From the NCBI GenBank assembly GCA_018127085.1, contig CM030732.1, positions 186,001 through 250,000 on the forward strand: DNA of 64,000 bases, given 5' to 3'. Source of the DNA: Pneumocystis sp. 'macacae' (Eukaryota > Ascomycota > Pneumocystomycetes > Pneumocystales > Pneumocystaceae). Position numbers and translations under genes: made by a program. Under the pieces are notes generated by a model. That model worked only from the letters and a program-made list of their open reading frames with translations, had not been told where the DNA came from and made no database searches. Below are positions 43,995 through 55,542 of the stretch, one piece after another; within the stretch, counting starts at the first letter, position 1; every line of letters begins with the position of its first letter.

Positions 43995-44562
43995 TTGACT
44001 GAGACAAAATTATAATACGTACAAGTCTACCAAAATTTTTATGCAATTTTTTGAACATGAATATTAAACAACTAATCTAGGCATCCCCTTAGAGCTCTAT
44101 CTCTATAAATAATCTGTTTTAAAACTTTTTTATTATCATTTAATTATGTTTTACATGTCGTTTTTGAAATTTTATCGAATATAAAAATTTAAGTGTAGAA
44201 ATAAGGTTCATAATAAGTATATTTACTTGTTTGAATAATATTATTGAGGTAAATAATGATTTTTTATATATAGTTTTAGTATAATTATACGTTAATTCTA
44301 TAGTTAAAACGTAGTTTTCAGCATAGTCTTGAGTATTCATATTATGTGTTTATATATGAGTTAGATGAAAGTTTAATTGGGACTTGTAAAGAGGTTATTT
44401 GTTATTTAATTATTCCTGTTGGATTGTAGCAAAGTTTTTGGTTAGTTATTGGACGATTATTGTGTGGACACGGTATGTGCGCGTGTCTTCGGTTTACCTT
44501 GTTACAATGTTTGATATTCTCTTTTTATCGGTTTTTGGTTTTTTGTATTCACTCTTTGTTTG
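43995..44562. promoter_or_regulatory. Divergent promoter region of MSN5 and the dynein LIC gene
   Basis: 568 bp between divergent starts. The left part is extremely AT-rich (9 G+C in the 60 bases from 44,221), while 44,440-44,510 (GGACGATTATTGTGTGGACA, GTATGTGCGCGTGTC) is already noticeably richer in G and C. No RNA gene recognised; the 66-codon minus-strand frame at 44140-44340 is unsupported. Confidence 0.4.
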
Positions 44563-46390
44563 ATGGATAAGGTTTTTTGCGCTCAAAATGCAATTGAAGA
44601 AGTATTGGAAGGTACAGATGGGATATCAACCTCATGCAATCTTTGGTTGAATCTTCTGAACTCTGTTTCTTCTGTAAAAAAGACACCTTTAAAGCATCTT
44701 ATTTTGCTTGGTTGGTATTTTGATGACTGAGGAATGTGTAGGTCTGATTGTCTCTAGGAGGAGGAAATAGGGGTGCAACTGAGTGGATTTCGTCTTTGAA
44801 GCAGGTTGCTGGATCATACAATAGACAAGATTCGTTTTCGCGAGATAAGGAACAAATAACATCGCCAACGTATCTTATGGATTACACGTATATTGAGCTG
44901 ATGGATCCAGATCATGGGGGTAAGATCCGGGAGAGTAGCTGTTATGGATTTTTTATCTCTAACATATAAAACAAGAGATATTGGCTGTTATTGAAGTATA
45001 TTTGATTTCAGAACTTCATTTGGTATCTGAAGCGGTGCTTTCTGAACTCTTTACGCCAGAGTTTCTTGAAAACTGTGCTGTTTGTATTTTACTTGATTGG
45101 ACAAATCCTTGGCAATGGTCGCATGAGCTATCTGTTTGGATACAATTATTAAAGAAAGTTATTGAAAATTTTAAATCAAAGTCAGAATTATGTGATCAGA
45201 TTGTTTTGAAATTGACAGAACTGTGTAAATATACGAGATTCATGAATCTACTTTAGTAATATAATTATTCAGGGAAACATAAAATACAAATCTGTGAAAA
45301 TTTAGGGTCGACGTTGGGCGATCTCGATCATAATAATCGAATGACGATTCCCTTGGAGCCGGGCCAGTATGATGAACCTTTAGGACTGCCGTTGATATGT
45401 GTTTGTAATCATGTAATATTTCTTCTTTTTAAATCAGTCAAATTTTGACATTTTGGATATAGTCAGAATATATGGCTACAATCGAGAAAGACGAACTTTT
45501 GAAAGACGAACACTTTGATTTTATCCAGCAATTCCTTAGAACGATACTTATGAAGCGTAGTTGAATTTATCCTATATCTTATAGATGTTGATTTGATCCT
45601 AGATGGAGGAGCGCTTTGTTATACATCTGATTTATATCCAGATACACTAAATAGTTTACTGTATACTATTCTTGATAGCTTTTTTCTTTCGCCTCAGATA
45701 TATATGGATATAAGTCTTCCGCCCAAAGCAAATGTAATCGATAGAGATCACATATTTGTACCGGCGGGCTGGGATTCATGGGGGAAGATCCGCATTATCC
45801 GGAGCGAATTTGATGTAGAAGGAGTGGCTGAAGGGTGGTGCTTGGATCTGAATTTGGATGCAAACAAAACGAAGCCTGGTGCTATGCAAATTTATGAAGA
45901 AACAATATTGGACTATAGAAAAGTGGGCAGTATGCAAGCATTCATAAAGACTAATCGTCCTAGGACAGTTCCCTCGATTCTCCGGAGACAAAAGAACCGG
46001 TGACTGCGCTGTCTTTGCAGGAATTTCTTTTAAATCAGCTGAATACGGCTGAAACAAAAACTCAGACACAAGAAAGCCCCACAAAGACCAAGAAAAACAT
46101 AGCCAATGCTCATGCTGCCTCAACCCAGCTGAATCTGTGTGGTATGAAGCTAGACACCGACGAGGTCGTCGAAAGACTTCAGAAATTAAGAGTAAGCTGT
46201 CTCTTTTCTTTCTCCTCTAAAACACTAGGATATACGCTCCGAAAGCAACTCGCCCATGCTGACTCCAGACAAGTCCGCCAACTCTCTTTCAAAGCCAACG
46301 TCTCCCCCGCTCCTCAAAGACCAGACCCAGAACGAGGCACTCGCTAATTTCTTCCAAAGCCTGCTCAGCCGCAAGAAAGAGACTACATAG
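44563..46390 (+). CDS. DLI1: Cytoplasmic dynein light intermediate chain
   Basis: Links the dynein heavy chain to cargo adaptors. It starts MDKVFCAQNAIEEVLEGTDG. The Ras-like fold begins LLGGGNRGATEWISSLKQVA, where the P-loop Lys-Ser/Thr is missing, followed by YTYIELMDPDH and CAVCILLDWTNPWQWSHELS. DEHFDFIQQFLRTILMKRS and PAGWDSWGKIRIIRSEFDVE are family blocks. A 43 nt intron (about 45921-45963) joins DYRK to DSSLDSPETKEPVTALSLQE, giving the adaptor-binding helix QEFLLNQLN. The last exon ends NEALANFFQSLLSRKKETT, the conserved C-terminal FF..LL helix. GC content rises steeply through the last exons into the GC island. Confidence 0.88.
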
Positions 46391-47021
46391 ACCTCCCAAG
46401 ACATTTCCACGCCTGTCTGCCTGCAACCCTCCTCCCCAGAGCACCGCCTGTCTTACCCAGTGACCGCCCCAACCACACCCGGCCCCGTCATCTCCTGCCT
46501 AGACCTGCGTCCCTGCCCGTCTCTGTCCAACAGGACCCCTTCCATACTTCCATACTCCTCATCCATCTCGCCCTCCTGCCCCGCCCTGCCCCCTCTCCAA
46601 CTGCTGCCTCATATATGTCTCCCGGGCACGGTCATACTGTTCCCGGTGCCCACTGCAATGTCAAAAGCCGCCTGCCACACACGGCATCTTACTTGAGACG
46701 CATGCACTCCTTCATCCGGTGCTTCTCTTCCCGGCACTTCCATGCCATCGAAAACGTCCTTCCTGCCGCACACTCTGCAAATCCTGTCCATCTAAGCCGC
46801 CGCCGCCCCACTGTCTCCCAACCTCGGATGCTGTCCGCACATGCCGTCCGAAGGCTCTTCAGGAAAATCCTGCGCACCTCTTCCTCGTCCCGCGAAGACC
46901 ACTGCCCAAACATCTCCGACCGCTCTGCCACCCGCTGCCCCGGCAACCACATGGCAACGCTTCTCGCGGCACGTGACCGCCACAGAGCAACTGCTCGTGC
47001 GGCAGTGTCTCCGAGCCTCTG
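46391..47021. other. GC-rich intergenic region between dynein LIC and TEL2
   Basis: 631 bp, C-rich on the plus strand, containing the dynein LIC 3' UTR and the TEL2 promoter. Frames of 78-190 codons are open on both strands (for example 46460-46696 and 46615-47022 plus, 46689-47261 minus), but the high GC removes stop codons and none shows a recognisable domain. An unannotated TEL2 5' exon here (for example around 46,930-47,015, WQRFSRHVTATEQLLVRQ in another frame) is possible but cannot be confirmed. This is the only intergenic stretch in the window with such high GC. Confidence 0.5.
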
Positions 47022-49572
47022 ATGGCCGACGAAAAGGACGCCGCCGACACCGCCGACGCACACACCGCCCTCCAGACACTCCGCAGCCAGCCGCCGCCCG
47101 ACGCCCTGCTCCACGCCCTCCAGACCATCGCCCGCCTCCACAGCACACACTCCCCGGCCGTTGCCGGCCACCTCGGCGCCACCATCACCTGTGTCCTCGT
47201 CGACTCCATCCTCCCTGCACACCTCCCACCCATCTTCTCCGAGAAAACCCCCGCCACCCACGCCCTCAGGGCCGCTCTTGCCGCCTGTCTCTCAACCGTC
47301 CGTGCACTCAACGCACTCCTCCTCCGCATCAAGACCGTCTCCGAGACCCCTCCCGCCACTGTCTCCCCCGCCTTCTTCCACCACATTGCCGACCTCCTTG
47401 CGCTGCTCCAGGACATCCTCTGCTTCGAACAGACCCTCGTCCCTGCCTGGATACGCTGCCACCCCCCTCCCAACCCCGGCCCCGCTCTCTGGAACGACTA
47501 TGTTGCGCTTGTTGCTGGCGGCCGCATCCTTGGCACTGCCTCCCAGGCACTCCTGACGCTCTGGCGCCACTCGCCTCTCGATGCCCGGCCCTCCTTCTGG
47601 GTCTCTGACGGCCCCGCCTATGCGCGCCGCCTCGCTGGCCTCCTCCTTGCGTCCCTCGACGACCCCCGCTTCTCGTCCTCCATGGAGCACGGCTTCTCCC
47701 GCCTCCTTGGCCGCCTCCTCTCGCTTGGCCACACTGGTCAGTCTGCGCCCTGCCCTCACCCTAACCCTCTACCCTAACCCCCACCCTGCCCTACCCTTTC
47801 TCTGTCTGCCCTCACCCTGCCCTACACATCATCCGCCTGCCCTAACCCTCACATGCATGCCCTGCCCTAGCCCTCCGCAGCCGACCACAGCACCGCTGAC
47901 ATGCACAGGCCCGCTTGTCTCGCCGCTCTTCCCGGCCGGCCTCCTGCCTCTCCACCGGATTGCCCGCCTCCTGACGGCCTCCCAGAAGACCCTCTATGTC
48001 CACGCCCTCCTTGCCCTTGCCGACCGCTCCTCCGGACACCCTGTCCTCGCCGAGACACTTGCTGCCCTCCTCGCTGCCGACTCCTCCCTCGCCTCCATCC
48101 TGTCCCAGTGGCTGCATTCCCAGCCGTCCTCGGTCCCCGTCCGCCGCGCGGTTGTCGCTGCATATGTCTCCTTTGTGGGCGGTACGTCATCTCCTGCTGG
48201 TCTCTCTGACTCCCCAGACTCCTGTGCACGGGACACCCTCCTGTCTGTGTGTTCCAGATGGGCATCACGTGCCTTCATTGCCTGTGCACCGCTCTCTGAG
48301 CAGGAAGGTGGGTTGGCTGATGCAGTGCTGACCTCAGTCCTTACACAGACACTCCTGCTCTTTGTTGCTGTCCTCTCCTCTGCCTCCCTCGACGCCTTCT
48401 CCCACGCAGCCCCCTATCTCGACGGGCTGACCAACAGACTCGGTGCGTCTTCTGAGCGTGCACGCTTTCTCGGCATGGTTGTTGGCGAGGCCCTGACCCG
48501 CCGCCTCTTTCCTGCCGCCCCCGACAGGTGGCTCACCTTCGATGTCGACGACACCCGGTCGCCCGAGGCCGACTCCTGGCGCACCCTTGCGGGTGTCCCT
48601 TCTTCCTCGCCCGCCTCCGCCCCTGTGCCTCCGCCCACTCCGCCCCCGCAGCCGCTGCCCAGCCCGGACAGCAGCCCCGGCCTTGTGCCGTATGCGCTGC
48701 CCGCAAGCAGCAGCGACGCCGACTCTGACGACGAGTCCCTGTCCGACGACCCCTCTCTTGCCCCCCGCGTCGCTGCACCCGTCTATATCCGCGAGCTTAT
48801 CGCGCTCCTCCGCGACGCGTCCTATGAGCGCGTCCGCGTCGCGCTCCGCGTCGCGCCAGCACTCATCCGCCGCAAGGCCGCCTTTGGCTCCGAGCTTGGG
48901 GCCCACGCACTGACGCTTGCCCGCCTCCTCTCTGCACTCAACGACGAGTTTGCCGTCCCCCGCTTTGTCGAGCGCAAGCTTGCCGCCCTTGCCGCTCTCG
49001 TTGCCGCCTGTCCCGACCCCGTCGGGCCCTATCTTGTCGACGAGTACTTCACCGGCGACATCTCCGTCCAGCAGCGCTCGCTCATCCTCTCTGCACTCGC
49101 CCTCGCTGCACAGGAGATCGCTGCGCCCGCTCCACAGCCCTTCCCGTCCCGCCTCCTGCCGCCCGCGGCCCACCGCCGCCTGTTGCCGGGCAACGGCGCA
49201 CCCCCTGTGCGCGCACCCGCAGCGGTCTGCGCGTCTCTGCTGCGGCCGCTCGCCGCACAGTGTGCGCGCTGGTGGCGCGGCGCACCGGACAGCTGCGCAG
49301 CGTATGTGTCCCGTCCCGCAGCACTGACCGACAGACTCGCAGACGCACTGCTTGCGCGCCAACTCGCACAGACAGTCGGCGTCCTCGCCGCATGTGCAGT
49401 GCTCGACAGCGACACCGCAGCAGAAGCAGCAGCACTGCTGCACGCACTGCACACACACCCCGACACAGGCGTCCAGGACGCAGCAGCGGCGGCACAGGAG
49501 GTGCTCGGCACACGGACACCCGGCACGTGCACCCGTAACAAAGATTTTCAGTGGACACTCCGGACGCACTGA
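47022..49572 (+). CDS. TEL2: Telomere length/PIKK-stability protein Tel2
   Basis: Scaffold of the TTT complex (Tel2-Tti1-Tti2) that, with Hsp90, stabilises ATM/ATR/TOR-type kinases. Exons 47022-47736, 47909-48181 and 48218-49572 give about 780 residues, normal for fungi. N-terminal helical repeats (LHALQTIARLHSTHSPAVAG, LLALLQDILCFEQTLVPAWI) lead to ERARFLGMVVGEAL, an acidic linker (SSSDADSDDESLSDD) and the diagnostic C-terminal domain: YIRELIALLRDASYERVRVA, APALIRRKAAFGSELGAHAL, CPDPVGPYLVDEYFTGDIS and VQQRSLILSALALAAQEIAA. Codons end mostly in C or T, and the protein is Ala/Pro/Leu-rich, unlike AT-rich neighbours. A 30 nt stretch at about 48307-48336 could also be an intron. The stop is 27 bp before the WHI3-like ATG. 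Confidence 0.88.
47737..47908 (+). repeat. TEL2 intron 1 with degenerate telomere-like CCCTAA/CCCT repeats
   Basis: 172 nt intron (GTCAGT to TGCACAG, branch-like CTGAC near 47,896) joining HTG to PLVSPLFPAG in frame. Exact CCCTAA hexamers occur at 47,759-47,764, 47,772-47,777 and 47,840-47,845. They lie among many CCCTGC, CCCTAC and CCCTCA variants, so nearly the whole intron is built from CCCTNN-like units. It is several times longer than the usual 35-60 nt introns here. The minus strand would be G-run rich and could fold into G-quadruplexes. Confidence 0.75.
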
Positions 49573-49599
49573 TGTTTGGCGCGGAGAGCGGCAGCGGCG

Positions 49600-50718
49600 A
49601 TGGGTGTGCAGCGCACAAACGACAGTGACGGCCGCGACACAGACCGCGGCGGCACAGGCCTCGGCACACGGGGACGGACAGGCGCCCGGCTGGTCGTCCG
49701 GCGCGGTCTGCCGCGGGACGCCACAGACCGGGAAGTTGCGGCTCTGTTTTTCTTTGCACGGGGATGCACAGGGACAGTGGCAGGGACAGAGGGCACAGAG
49801 GCCGATGGCAGTGCGCCACAGGCAACAGCATACTTTGAGAGCGGAGAAGCAGCACGGGCAGCACAGGCAGTGCTGCAGGCAAAGACCTGGGGGGGCTGGG
49901 GGGGCGAAGACATAGACACAGAGGTGGTCGACGACCAGGGCGGGTCGCCCGGGACCACACACCACCCACAGACAAGCCGGCTGGCACAGTACTGCGGGGG
50001 AGCACGGGAGACAAAGGGGGGGGAGTGGATGCAGGCGTTCTGCGGAGTGCCGTATGGATACGGGGTCTATGGGGCTCCGGGACCAGGGGGGACAGGACAG
50101 GAGGTGTGCACAGAGGGCTGGGGGATGGGGGGGAGCGGGTATGGGGGGGAGGGAGAGGGCATGCATGGGGGACAGTCGCCAGGGATGCGGCGGGGACAGA
50201 TGGTGGGGGTGGGGGGGTCGCCAAACGGGTTTGGGGGGCGGGGGGAGGGGATGGGGGGGTATTTTGTGAACACGGGGTGTGGATATGGGGTGGGGAGCCA
50301 TGTGCGGGTGAGCACGAATCCGGCGGACCAGAATCCGCCGTGCAACACGCTGTATGTGGGGAATCTGCCGGTGAGCACGACGGAGGAGGAGCTGCGGAGC
50401 CTGTTTTCGCGGCAGCCGGGGTACCGGCGGCTGTGCTACCGGACAAAGTCGAATGGGCCGATGTGTTTTGTTGAGTTTGAGGATGTGGGGTATGCAATGA
50501 AGGCGCTGGGGCTGCTGCAGGGGGTGTGCCTGTCGAGCTCAGTGAAGGGGGGGATCCGGCTGAGCTTCAGCAAGAATCCGCTGGGGGTGAGGAGCAGCGG
50601 GGTGGTGGTGGGGCACTATGGGGTGCAGGGGAATGGGTTTGCGGGGGGGCTGCATGGACAGGCGGGGTTTGGGGTGGGGGCGGCATGGGCGGGGGTGAAC
50701 CAGCTGCTGGGGAAGTGA
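49600..50718 (+). CDS. WHI3: Whi3-like RNA-recognition-motif protein
   Basis: Cytoplasmic mRNA-binding protein family; Whi3 retains cyclin mRNAs and tunes cell-cycle commitment in yeast. I chose the ATG at 49600 ([18 protein letters not shown]). A degenerate N-terminal RRM-like region reads [21 protein letters not shown] long Gly-rich low-complexity linker follows (about residues 125-235, e.g. [17 protein letters not shown]). The C-terminal RRM is strongly Whi3-like: [58 protein letters not shown]. No intron. The coding strand is packed with G runs, and the Gly richness probably reflects this composition. The 27 bp spacer to TEL2 leaves almost no room for a promoter. Confidence 0.85.
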
Positions 50719-51003
50719 GGGCGAGGATATCCGGTGTTTTGGGGGAGGGAGGGCATTTTGGGGTCTGGCAGGGATTGCAATATGTTTTGTTTATTTTGAG
50801 CAGTTTTGTTTTGTTTAGGCACAGTTTGCTGTATACGTTATACATTTCATGTTATATATGAGCAGTGGTGCAGTGGGTGCGGAGACTTATGCGGGCGGGG
50901 AGCGTTGCCGGAGCGACGGCAGACGTCGAGAGTCAGAGGGTGGTGGAGACGGTCTTTGGGTCTGGAAGGACTGGAGAACGGGGTAGAGGGGATGTGGTAG
51001 GCG
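50719..51003. promoter_or_regulatory. AT-rich notch and promoter before the lipase gene
   Basis: 285 bp between the WHI3-like stop and the lipase start. Within the GC island, 50,770-50,860 drops abruptly to AT-rich sequence (TTTTGTTTAGGCAC, TATACATTTCATGTTATATA), then GC returns from about 50,865. The AT notch likely holds the WHI3 terminator and the lipase core promoter. A 43-codon frame from the ATG at 50858 ends before the lipase ATG and may be an upstream ORF. Confidence 0.5.
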
Positions 51004-52199
51004 ATGGCGTCGTCGCTGCGCTCGCTGAAGATATGTTTTTCGGCGTTTTTTTCGAAATCGGTGCCTTTTTTGTCGCTTTGTGATCTGAACATCAGACAGG
51101 TGATTTCTGACATGTGCACGAGACCGGCACAGCGAGAGCGGTTTGCATATGGGCCGGCGGCAAAGACGGACGGCAAGAGGCCGTCAGACAAGTGGCGTTT
51201 TCTGCTTCCCATCCAGTATTCATATCATTCACCCCAGTACCCGATTGTATTGTGCCATGGTAGGTGTCTGGCGGTGGAGCAGGGCTTACGGTGCAAGGGC
51301 TTGGGTTTTTTGAGAAGGTTCCGTCGTCTTTGCCGACGTTTCAGCTCCACTACTGGGGATCTATTTTTGAGTCTTTGAAGAAGCTCGGGTGCCAGGTTTA
51401 TGTGACCCGAGTGCCCAGCACGGGCACGATTGCACATCGTGCCAGAGAGCTTAGCAGACAGCTGTCTTTGATGGTCAAGGGGAAGCGGGTCAACCTTGTT
51501 GCTCACAGCATGGTGTGTTTTTCCAGGTTTCAAGGCTTGTGGTTAATTATGCACAAGGGAGGACTAGATTGCCGATATCTATTGTCAAAGCGTTTATACA
51601 CAAATTATTATCCTGTCTCGTTAACGACTTTGTCGTGTCCCCACCGTGGATCGCCTTTCATGGACTGGTGCCGAGACTATCTTGGGCTTGGTCGTGTTTT
51701 TCCTCATTCAACTGGTGTCGTAAAAGATGATTCTATTACGAAAAATGCTCGGTTTTCAAGTAGTTCGTGCAAAAAGAATGAAAGCAATTCATCCATTTCA
51801 TCAACTATTTTGACAAGTATCATGTTTTCTCAAACAATGGATACTCCTGCATATGCTAATTTAACGACTACATATTTGAAGGAATCCTTTAATCCCTTTA
51901 TCTTGGACTCATTAGAGGTGAAATATTATTCGTTCGCTGCTGTTGCATCTTCTGTACCCATATGGCATCCTTTGTATCTTCCAAATCACGTTGTTTCCCA
52001 AGCAGAAGGTATTCGCAATGATGGTTTGGTAAGTGTTGAAAGCGCAACATGGGGGAAACTGCTAGGGATATTGGATTGTGACCATTGGGAACTGCGGGGC
52101 AGAAGAATAGGTGTAGGAACAGCATTTAGTAAACGAAATTTTGATGTAAATGATTTTTATTGTGCTCTAGCAACACATTTATGGAACGAAAGTTTTTAA
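51004..52199 (+). CDS. TGL2: Alpha/beta-hydrolase triacylglycerol lipase, Tgl2-like
   Basis: Predicted neutral lipid lipase, mitochondrial in yeast. It starts MASSLRSLKICFSAFFSKSV, a plausible targeting or anchor sequence. Two introns (51260-51297 and 51513-51557) assemble YPIVLCHGLGFFE, the oxyanion HG motif, HYWGSIFESLKKLGCQVYVT and VNLVAHSMGGLDCRYLL, with the nucleophile Ser in HSMGG. SLTTLSCPHRGSPFMDWC follows. A C-terminal GIRNDGLVSVESATWG (Asp-containing) and CDHWEL (His) complete the triad. About 370 aa. Exon 1 is GC-rich, exon 3 AT-rich, so the island edge passes through this gene. The SCPHRGS motif is typical of the bacterial-like/Tgl2 lipase family. Confidence 0.86.
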
Positions 52200-52505
52200 A
52201 TGTATTTCCATTTACAAAACTTTAACAAATTTCAGTCATTTTAGTTCATGTTTTGTGTATTATTTGCAAATTATTTGCAAAAATATTTATTCGGATTTTT
52301 ATTATCATGTTTATAGAAAAAGTTAAAAATCATTAGAAGCGTGCCATGAACGTACTAGAAGCGTAGCAAAGATGCACTAGAGACTTGAGAAGTTAGGATT
52401 TATATCATAGAAACTGGTCTATATTGATATGTTTTCATTTAAAACAAGTCATTTCTAATATATACAATGATATCCCCTCTAGGGATTTTCCTAAGATGTT
52501 TGTCA
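52200..52505. other. Convergent intergenic region after the lipase gene
   Basis: 306 bp, AT-rich, with two near-copies of TAGAAGCGT (52,333-52,341 and 52,359-52,367). These are too short and few to call a repeat family. It should hold the lipase and kinase 3' ends. No RNA gene recognised. Confidence 0.4.
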
Positions 52506-54499
52506 TTAACATGGTGATTTCTTGAGTTTTCTTAATAAATCTACGGGAATATGATCATGTTTTACTCTTGCTTCCATTTGCTTAAAACAGTCTTTGTTAG
52601 ATACATCTACTTTCCCGTGAGAATCAATCTCTTGCCCTTTATCTAAAGCACAACACTCTATCCGTTGAACAAATTTAGAATTTAGTACTTCTTCAGCTGA
52701 TAATCGTTCATTAGGATCAGGATTAAGCATTCTATAAATAGTATGTTGAGCGCTGGCTTTCCAATGCTTAAAAGGAGCATATGAGGGAAGTTTTTCATCT
52801 TTGACTCCATTCGTAGCGCAAATAGGAGAATATAGTGGAGACATATCCGTAAAACTTGAAATAGATGGTACTGATGCTGATAAAGGTAAGACTGATGAGT
52901 CAACATTAGTCTGGTGTGATGCAAAATTCGACGATAATGAGTCTGAGGGATCAATAAATTTTGTTCGAAACTTTTTAAATGCATCTAAATAGTTGTCATA
53001 ATGCTTGTCACCAGGTATTGCTTTAACAAAAAGTGTCCCACCCCAGGTGAGACAAAAATAAACAATTGCACAAGACCAAATATCTACTTTAAAGCCATCA
53101 TATTCTAGTATATGTTAAAATGATACATATTACAAAAAATGAAGAAAGTGATACTACCTTTTTGCATAAATACTTCGGGAGCGATATAAGCACCACTTCC
53201 ACATATCCCACGACACTTTTTGGCCTTTTTTCCACCATCAGGGGAGTCCTTATTAAACAATACATCACTTGTTCCAAAATCTGTAATTTTAAGAATACCA
53301 TTATAATTAAGAAGTAAATTTTCAGGCTTAATATCCCTATGTGCAATCCCCTCGGAATGCAAATAATAAATCCCCCGAAGTAGCTGTTTAAAAAGACAGT
53401 TTCTAAGATTTGGCGCCATTTCTTTAGGCTCCGGCTCTGCAGTCCAATCGACCATGGATTTAATAAGAGAATGAAGGTCGCCCGCGGCACAGAATTCCAT
53501 TATTTCACACCATGAATCCGCACTGAGAGCATGATCATCTAAACAAATGTCAACAGCACGTACAACGTTTGGATGGTCAACGCGTCGTTGAATCGTCCAT
53601 TCGCTTGCAAGTTTTTTAAGATAATCTTCTTTTCTTTCTGATCTACTTTTCTTTCTGAAAGTTTTTACCGCAAAAAGGCCAGAATCTCCACCAGTGCTTT
53701 CAATACTTGAATGACATCCGGGTTTAAGGCTAACAACTTGGACAGTAGCTGTTGCACCCGAACCGATATCTTTTTTCCGGAATCCGTGATGTGTGTTTCG
53801 ATAGATATACCGCTCCTTTAATTTAATAATGCCTTCTCGGTTAATAAATTGCTGGATTCCCATGCTTAATGAACGGTTCCTGAAAATCTTTGATTTCAAT
53901 CCTGATCCAAGTTCTGCACAAGCATGGTTCAAAATATCCGGAGAATCCGCATATATTGACTCAGCCATGTCAGATGTTTCACTTTTAATAGATTCCGGAA
54001 TAATAGGACAGCAGTCATACATGATTCCTTTAGATAACAAAGGTTTATCATGCCCATTAATTTTATGATGATCTTCATGACTATCGAAAAGCTCTGATGA
54101 ATTCCTGCTATGATGTAGCCTTGGTATATCTGCGAGATCCACATCTGAGGGAGGGTAAGATGAAAAATCATCAAATTGCTCGATTTCTTTTGCAAGATTG
54201 CTAGATACACAATCTGTCTCTGTATTCAATGAAAAAGATCGCTGATGCCCAATCGATGAAATAAACATATTGGATTCTTGCGGAAACTCCAGTCCATGAA
54301 GTGATCTAGAAAATGTGGTTCCATTTTCCCTTGCTGCTGATACTGCCAGAGAGGTAATTGCTGACATCGATGATGTCTTCTGCAGGATCCTGGGCCACGA
54401 AGACTCCCTTTCTAGCACTACTGACGTGTGTTTAGACATATTATGCAGGTTTCTTGTCTCTTTTCTTATTTGTGGAAGATGTGTTATAAAAGCTGACAT
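52506..54499 (-). CDS. Ser/Thr protein kinase, Npr1/Hal4/Hal5-type
   Basis: Fungal kinase family that controls nutrient and ion transporters at the plasma membrane. It starts [20 protein letters not shown], with a ~230 aa Ser-rich, low-conservation N-terminus. The kinase domain has the glycine loop [18 protein letters not shown], the Lys in [11 protein letters not shown], the catalytic loop [21 protein letters not shown] in [12 protein letters not shown], and [15 protein letters not shown]. After an intron at about 53105-53155, [17 protein letters not shown] and the C-lobe with [20 protein letters not shown] follow. It ends [20 protein letters not shown] and the acidic insert are typical of this fungus-specific family; exact orthology among Npr1, Hal4/5 or Hrk1 is not resolved. 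Confidence 0.83.
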
Positions 54500-55542
54500 A
54501 ATTCCATGATTATATGCTTTTTAAACTCCCTTTACGCCGTCTGAAACACTGCAATTTTTGGTTGTCTCGCCCAAATACTGTCTTGTATGCGCTTTCTTGT
54601 TGATCTTTAGGTTACTAATTTCAAGTACGAAATTAAATATGAAAAAATGTTCTATACTTCTTAAAGTTTTTATACAATTCCAATCTATAACTACGCAGAG
54701 CTTTTGTAGATACTTTTTCCTATCTTTTTTACTTTTTATTTTTCTGCTAAAAATGATTACTTTTGATTAAAAATATACTCGTTTGATTCTCTTGATGTGT
54801 CCTTGTTTGACTTCCCGTGTATAGTGTTGCCTAAGCAACGTTAATGTTGCTTCTATCGTATCTGTTTTTGCCAAAATATATGATATTTTTAAAATACTTA
54901 TAAGATTTTTAGTTGTGTTTTAAAAAATATATATCTTTTATTTAGATGATTTTCAAGTGTTTCTATAAGCCTTAAACTTTTAAATACTGCTTTTTATTTG
55001 AGATCAGAGTCCCGAATCGTGTGAATAGGGTTTTGTCGGATCTAATCAGCACTCCGTTGTAGGGTTAAACCTTAATAAGATGAGACAAAGAATAAGAGGA
55101 TAAAAAACAGTAAACTAGAAGAAGCGTAAAAGAGTTAGAAGTATAAATATGTCTTTTTCTACTATTTTCCTACTTTAAATATTTTTAAGTATCTTCAAGG
55201 AACTACTTTTAATGGAAAGCTTAATTATTGGAACTCGATAAATGGTTAAGGAGTTTAATTTTGTATAAATTAAAAGGGTAAAATGAATCTGTTTGAATCC
55301 AGTATAAGAAAGACAGATGCATATAATCTGATTATATCAGATATCAAAATGAATATGGATGTAGAAAAAACAAGCAATAAGTGTATTTTGGAGAAGATTG
55401 TAAAAAGAACGTTTGTGATACCAGTTAAAATCGATTGATGTAAGTGTAAATAAGATTTATTGGTGATTAGAAAAAATGTATAAAAAGTGCATAAAATAAT
55501 GTAAAATCGAGAGATGGATGAATAAAAATGTAAAGAAACAAA
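54500..55542. promoter_or_regulatory. Large region upstream of the kinase gene and downstream of the septin gene
   Basis: 1,043 bp. A small perfect hairpin GTTGC-CTAA-GCAAC lies at 54,826-54,839. Two AGGGTT elements, at about 55,026-55,033 (TAGGGTTT) and 55,055-55,063 (TAGGGTTAA), occur in a stretch less AT-rich than its surroundings (54,990-55,080). An uncharacterised small RNA or a regulated promoter is conceivable, but I recognise no known RNA class. A 70-codon plus frame at 54558-54770 is AT-driven and hydrophobic and not supported. Confidence 0.4.

Follow-up and report, generated by a model that had tools for sequence, protein, structure and literature searches.

GC (guanine plus cytosine)-biased gene conversion is usually a weak statistical signal, and Smagulova et al. 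are said to have described, in 2011, mouse double-strand-break hotspots in which nucleotide skew changes polarity at the centre. At human hotspots, single-stranded DNA is forward on the left of the break and reverse on the right, and the flanking 2 kb, unlike the central 100 bp, carry strand-asymmetric mutations (PMC7615360). Hotspots compete and interfere over distances of ~200 kb (S. pombe) or ~70 kb (S. cerevisiae) (PMC8789058), and gerbils carry runaway-GC regions, one large and at least 17 gene clusters at megabase scale (PMC7403616). Here we analyse a 64,000-nucleotide stretch (contig CM030732.1, positions 186,001 to 250,000; the whole stretch is called the window below) of Pneumocystis sp. 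'macacae', a macaque lung fungus with a very AT-rich genome. In this stretch a GC-rich island of about 5 kb holds the core gene TEL2 and a gene for an RRM protein. Judged from its sequence, this island is probably a fixed meiotic double-strand-break hotspot with GC-biased gene conversion, one of about 60 in P. macacae.

The islands share with the mouse hotspots, as these are reportedly built, a polarity change at the centre, but the latter are mammalian and PRDM9-directed. Human hotspots resemble the islands in kilobase scale, centred geometry and strand-polarised flanks (PMC7615360), and the spacing of the islands is compatible with the competition described for hotspots elsewhere (PMC8789058); unlike human and fungal hotspots, however, the islands reach ~65-70% GC in a genome of 28% GC, are visible locus by locus, and are known here from sequence alone. 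The gerbil regions show a similar lineage-specific, GC-ward evolution that rewrites proteins and is credited to recombination and biased conversion, whereas the islands are many discrete bells of 3-5.5 kb with a strand flip, and 'GC skew' in the gerbil work denotes AT-to-GC bias, not strand skew (PMC7403616). No earlier account of such islands was found in the literature on Pneumocystis recombination and gene conversion, a search that left subscription journals mostly outside.

Results

The window lies on contig C13 (440,900 bp) of an 8.27 Mb genome in 19 contigs. In sliding 5-kb windows its richest segment is 46294-51293, with 64.9% GC, against a mean of 0.280 (standard deviation 0.019, maximum 0.335) outside 44.5-52.5 kb. 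The 5-kb GC-rich island reported in an earlier note on this DNA is thus real, and two of the 60-base lines cited there agree with direct counts (0.783 at 47041 and 0.15 at 44221), a third, at 50161, measuring 0.717, slightly under the 73% given. The abrupt change described there is not what the profile shows: the edges are gradual, and the island is a bell instead of a step, with GC rising from ~44.5 kb, staying at 0.65-0.71 in 1-kb windows across 47-50 kb and returning near 0.3 by 52.1 kb. Across it GC skew passes from -0.43 (46.5-48 kb) to +0.51 (50-51 kb). The flip sits near 49,560, which is +801 bp from the GC centroid (48,759) and coincides with the 3' end of the TEL2 frame, although both TEL2 and the RRM gene are on the + strand; this flip had no place in the earlier note. 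An Rfam scan of the window gave nothing at gathering thresholds.

46031..51573, no strand: GC bell, where 800-bp smoothed GC exceeds 0.45
49260..49860, no strand: putative centre and proposed break zone, around the cumulative GC skew minimum at ~49,560, drawn +/-300 bp

The island is not unique, a point missed in the earlier note. Counting overlaps, the + strand of the genome has 235 places with a run of 16 G/C bases. G/C runs group into at least 59 internal clusters, spread over 16 contigs (C1-C16), with 1-5 per contig, 3-5 on 15 of the 16, and at least one on C12 (at 74.2 kb); 59 is a lower bound, above all for C11-C19. These clusters exclude, by hand, one place on C19 and the places within ~30 kb of contig ends, which are mostly repeated subtelomeric runs and C homopolymers. 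DNA was read for 20 of the 59 (the window, L002-L009 and L022-L032), 18 of them chosen by G/C runs (the window island being given) and two (L031, L032) by matches to domains of the arginine-glycine-rich proteins treated below, none by skew. All 20 contain a GC-rich stretch of ~3-5.5 kb, C-rich on the left and G-rich on the right in 500-bp or 1-kb steps, the pieces L028, L031 and L032 ending inside that stretch on one side. Fifteen clusters rest on one run, and the five of these that were read are all islands. Conversely, 120 kb of continuous DNA (C13:250001-370000) holds neither an island by GC nor a cluster by runs, so the two methods agree there. Near many contig ends there are repeated G/C runs (ACCGCCCGCGCCA, ACCCCCCGCGCCA and GGCGCGGGGGGCGGCGCGGGC, e.g., at C1:8033, C2:557494, C3:307, C13:6510 and C16:338687), which probably belong to a subtelomeric gene family.

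The islands have a common anatomy. The mean profile of 18 islands aligned on their GC centroid rises from 0.30 to 0.65-0.67 GC with half maximum ~1.9 kb on each side, individual widths above 45% GC being 3.0-5.5 kb, and pooled skew runs from -0.40 at about -1 kb through ~0 at the centre to +0.35 at about +1 kb, fading to ~0 past 2.8 kb. When each island is split at the centroid, the left half is negative and the right half positive in 17 of 18; this is the fair count, as a split at the cumulative-skew minimum fixes the sign by construction. Flips are placed to a few hundred bases, with a standard deviation of 346 bp for flip minus centroid. In 25 clusters then unread, one of which (C11 400.9) was read afterwards, the G/C runs become more G-rich rightward in 20, with one tie (P 0.0015). 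A consistent flip of AT skew was not found across the islands, and CpG observed/expected in the bells averages 0.81 (0.68-0.93).

The clusters are also over-dispersed. The 11 contigs whose length is known hold 33 neighbour gaps, none smaller than 29.8 kb. Random placement that keeps clusters at least 5 or 10 kb apart attains this in no more than 0.001 of trials, and the coefficient of variation of the gaps, 0.55, is low against random (P 0.004-0.012); clusters missed by the run lists could weaken or change this result. Competition between hotspots across tens to hundreds of kb would lead to such spacing (PMC8789058).

Beyond the islands the signal does not continue. In the 14 islands with both flanks measurable, over a few kb each, flank skew is -0.006 on the left and +0.005 on the right (difference 0.011, paired P 0.73). 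The two flanks of an island correlate (+0.66), and 2 of the 14 have the pattern of an origin. Unswitched and correlated flanks indicate a local signal, set inside whatever domain surrounds it.

TEL2 illustrates what has happened inside one bell.

46977..47777, + strand: open frame with an upstream TEL2 exon, 41% identical to P. oryctolagi TEL2 over 237 amino acids
47741..47885, + strand: probable long TEL2 intron of 64.8% GC, containing repeats of CCCTAA/CCCTGC type; ends set by eye
47557..49572, + strand: TEL2 main frame (read-through, introns kept), PF10193 at E 2.9e-33, aligned with P. oryctolagi and P. canis; C-rich coding strand
53105..54520, - strand: flanking protein kinase of normal composition, the control gene, 100% identical to PMAC_000980 over 95% of the query

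The earlier assignment of TEL2 to the island holds, given the PF10193 match, the upstream exon and a single match in the whole P. macacae genome, which makes the gene single-copy; the exon ends were placed by eye. In protein searches its closest relatives are the TEL2 proteins of P. oryctolagi and P. canis, both of AT type, and kinase and TEL2 carry consecutive locus tags in P. oryctolagi. Over 546 aligned columns, a few of which may be intron since the P. macacae frame keeps its introns, P. macacae and P. oryctolagi are 37% identical, versus 71% for P. oryctolagi and P. canis. The flanking kinase, by comparison, is 83% identical to that of P. oryctolagi and has no GC-ward change like that of TEL2. 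Gly, Ala, Arg and Pro make up 39.7% of P. macacae TEL2 versus 15.9% and 16.7% in the two relatives, and Phe, Tyr, Met, Ile, Asn and Lys 7.7% versus 33.9% and 33.5%; of 210 columns in which the relatives agree and P. macacae differs, 134 are GC-ward, 17 AT-ward and 59 neutral by class. First and second codon positions, third positions and the intron are GC-rich alike. Two protein searches, in each of which the 8,000 candidates sharing most words were scored, gave no TEL2 labelled P. macacae, and TEL2 of the sister species P. jirovecii, of P. carinii and of P. murina was not among their matches; as PF10193 scores E 2.9e-33 here, gene prediction may have skipped the P. macacae gene. Within the probable intron the repeat units are imperfect and CCCTAA/CCCTGC-like, some fitting a TTAGGG-type telomere repeat.

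In the islands, skew follows the side of the flip and not the strand of the gene. The Pfam scan covered 60 frames from 14 islands, with the frames of L028-L032 outside the scan, and 12 of the 14 have at least one match over the cut-off (L005 and L009 have only just-below matches). Bells or their edges hold a TATA-binding protein, squalene synthase, a Gar1/Naf1 protein, L44, Mon2, a ubiquitin hydrolase, a Cns1-type protein, Snf7, an MMM1/PH protein, a GPN-type GTPase, a cohesin loader, eIF4G, a mitochondrial carrier and others, some of these being names that we presume from the Pfam family. Third-position skew of the top strand is -0.59 for + genes and -0.50 for - genes on the left of the flip, and +0.38 and +0.62, respectively, on the right. 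It tracks the side of the flip in 21 of 21 gene-side segments (of 24 given, those counted have 20 or more codons between 200 and 2600 bp away from the flip, two deriving from below-cut-off matches), the flip itself being located by the GC skew of that DNA. In the ubiquitin hydrolase gene of L008, third-position skew changes sign inside the gene. R-loops or CpG-island promoters would make the coding strand G-rich downstream of the start, but the + strand segments of TEL2, TATA-binding protein, Gar1/Naf1 and Snf7 on the left of the flip are C-rich.

Two further frames lie in or beside the window island.

49573..50718, + strand: RRM protein, called WHI3 before; PF00076 at E 1.2e-12, Mec-8 at E 1.6e-10; G-rich coding strand
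45554..46000, + strand: exon on the left shoulder with a weak match to dynein light intermediate chain (PF05783, E 3.9e-5)

The former is an RRM protein, but the label WHI3 could be confirmed no further than that, Mec-8 being its nearest solved relative. NCBIfam, run on two frames, gave RRM-type matches below cut-off only for one and no match for the other. That the island holds native core genes is borne out by PF10193 and the RRM domains, by the single copy of TEL2 and by its closest relatives in P. oryctolagi and P. canis.

Further along C13, the segment 238500-370000, which begins at window position 52500, forms a strand-asymmetry domain, with non-coding GC skew of about +0.15 from 238.5k to ~352k and -0.19 thereafter, AT skew of opposite sign, and no regard to coding strand; the place near 352k looks like a border of a replication or other domain.

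The islands also bear on a class of proteins regarded as unique to this species, the arginine-glycine-rich 'RG proteins', of which the genome paper counts 190, nearly half of them subtelomeric and with frequent gene conversion suggested; only two of them have domains, PF08285 and PF10259 (PMC7940399).

C11:402163-402333 (L032 2663-2833): Rogdi_lz, single genomic match, in a stretch of 67% GC
C16:175032-175133 (L031 5032-5133): DPM3, single genomic match, on a shoulder of 47% GC

Both domain-bearing RG proteins appear to be ordinary genes in GC islands. Arginine plus glycine reach 0.2-0.39 in some bell frames and ~0.1 in others, 23 AT-rich frames having a mean of 0.08 and a maximum of 0.11. The RG proteins outside subtelomeres may thus largely be genes or frames in GC islands, of which 2 of the 190 were looked at.

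Discussion

GC-biased conversion at fixed breaks would account for GC-ward change in every tested site class, for a bell of the scale of resection, for a centred flip and for the spacing. GC excess in all site classes, decay over kilobases from a centre and reversal of polarity are all present, as is a Spo11-family domain (TP6A_N, over the cut-off at one locus, on C12). The half maximum near 1.9 kb and a skew of zero at the centre, strongest near 1 kb, resemble the geometry of resection at human hotspots and their symmetrical central 100 bp (PMC7615360). Among the explanations raised in the earlier note, GC-biased conversion at a persistent hotspot is the best supported, by native single-copy genes, gradual edges, at least 59 like clusters, a strand-independent centred flip, flanks without a long-range skew switch and over-dispersed spacing. 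Breaks, resection, biased repair and persistence are the parts of this explanation that we infer. Breaks would recur near 49.56 kb, with both ends resected over ~2 kb, and repair from the homologue would prefer G/C over A/T, so that GC near the break, whether in coding sequence, at third positions or in intron sequence, would over long times climb from ~28% to 65-70%. GC content at third codon positions is 0.72-0.78 in the bells versus 0.30 in the control kinase, which by our own arithmetic, assuming equilibrium at third positions, would mean a scaled conversion strength of about 2. The skew would need a strand-specific step: the 3'-ended single strand would be the top strand on the left of the break and the bottom strand on the right, and if T.G mismatches with T on the invading strand were corrected to C.G, C would be placed on the 3'-ended strand, making the left arm C-rich and the right arm G-rich. 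This mismatch-level cause is speculative. In mouse embryonic stem cells, break processing biases mismatch repair by strand (PMC9001825), so a strand-biased resolution is not far-fetched.

Several observations weigh against this explanation. The sign of the island skew is opposite to the human asymmetry, which consists of C>N and A>N on the forward strand (PMC7615360): the islands accumulate C on the strand that would be single, while in human hotspots C and A mutate on the forward strand, and strand-biased mismatch correction is proposed here to meet this difference. One island, L030, is the exception to the centroid split, and 4 of the 25 then-unread clusters become less G-rich rightward. A centre motif was not found when hexamers within 300 bp of the flip were compared with the rest of the bell in 18 islands, those near the flip being mostly GC-rich, with CAGTCA first among them, though on small counts (8 near, 8 far). 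Strongly conserved positions of TEL2 are broken no more often than in the relatives, and a conversion load is not visible there: of 122 sites that at least 90% of 53 other fungi conserve, 45 are changed in P. macacae and 41 and 42 in the two relatives, which suggests that selection still holds the core. Finally, non-coding skew beside the window island is ~0 over the 45 kb to the left and +0.15 across ~113 kb to the right, a pattern that an origin could produce.

Constitutive replication origins, at which origin-linked mutagenesis would lift local GC and leave a skew jump, are the main rival, and we consider them unlikely. A change of GC skew from negative to positive is the usual sign of an origin and is present at the islands; even spacing of the clusters fits origins too, as does the upshift in flank skew at the window island, whereas ~60 origins in 8.3 Mb would be few for a fungus. 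Human constitutive origins, like the islands, show a local GC increase and skew jumps (PMC9645720), which makes the rival a serious one; unlike at those origins, the skew of the islands fades within 3 kb, and an upshift continuing outward was not seen in the flanks of the 14 islands, measured over a few kb. The replication-linked alternative of the earlier note is therefore weakened but kept. Mutation alone, through error-prone repair of breaks or damage to single strands at these sites and without biased conversion, is improbable: strand-asymmetric mutation does flank human break hotspots, but the sign expected from that pattern is opposite (PMC7615360), and such mutation would have to be assumed to exert a net AT-to-GC pressure strong enough for 65-70% GC.

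Transcription, R-loops or the codon preference of highly expressed genes would suit the housekeeping genes in several bells. They are very improbable and were rejected, third-position skew being the same for + and - genes on each side of the flip and changing within the L008 gene, and the TEL2 intron being as GC-rich as the exons. The sharp difference in composition from the surroundings might suggest a contaminant, horizontal transfer or a chimeric assembly, yet TEL2 has neither foreign relatives nor extra copies, its best matches being in P. canis and in P. oryctolagi, in the latter of which its tag and that of the kinase are consecutive; the edges are gradual, the 20 read clusters are alike, and the assembly derives from Nanopore and Illumina reads (PMC7940399), so that this origin is rejected as hardly conceivable. 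Just as implausible, and likewise rejected, is a centromere: at 4.8-8.0 kb the centromeres of P. murina and P. carinii are of similar size, but their GC is lower by 3.9% on average and there is one per chromosome (PMC10327204), whereas the islands are GC-rich and occur as 3-5 clusters on 15 of 16 contigs.

Break hotspots with GC-biased, strand-polarised conversion thus remain the favoured explanation. More tentatively, and with slightly more doubt than confidence, we suggest that P. macacae may possess ~60 fixed, mutually spaced break sites at which conversion is biased both towards GC and by strand, the polarity of resection being written into each hotspot, and that the RG proteins outside subtelomeres may be a by-product of this process and not an adaptation to the host. 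If true, conversion in this fungus would be near saturation and would leave a directional signature visible locus by locus, so that the strand mechanics of meiotic repair could be tested from sequence. Recombination could then be located in a genus that resists culture, and the hotspot map of an unculturable fungus could be read from one assembly. It would also account for the rewriting of a core gene, TEL2, and it calls for caution, in that GC-rich 'lineage-specific' proteins of P. macacae may be ordinary genes.

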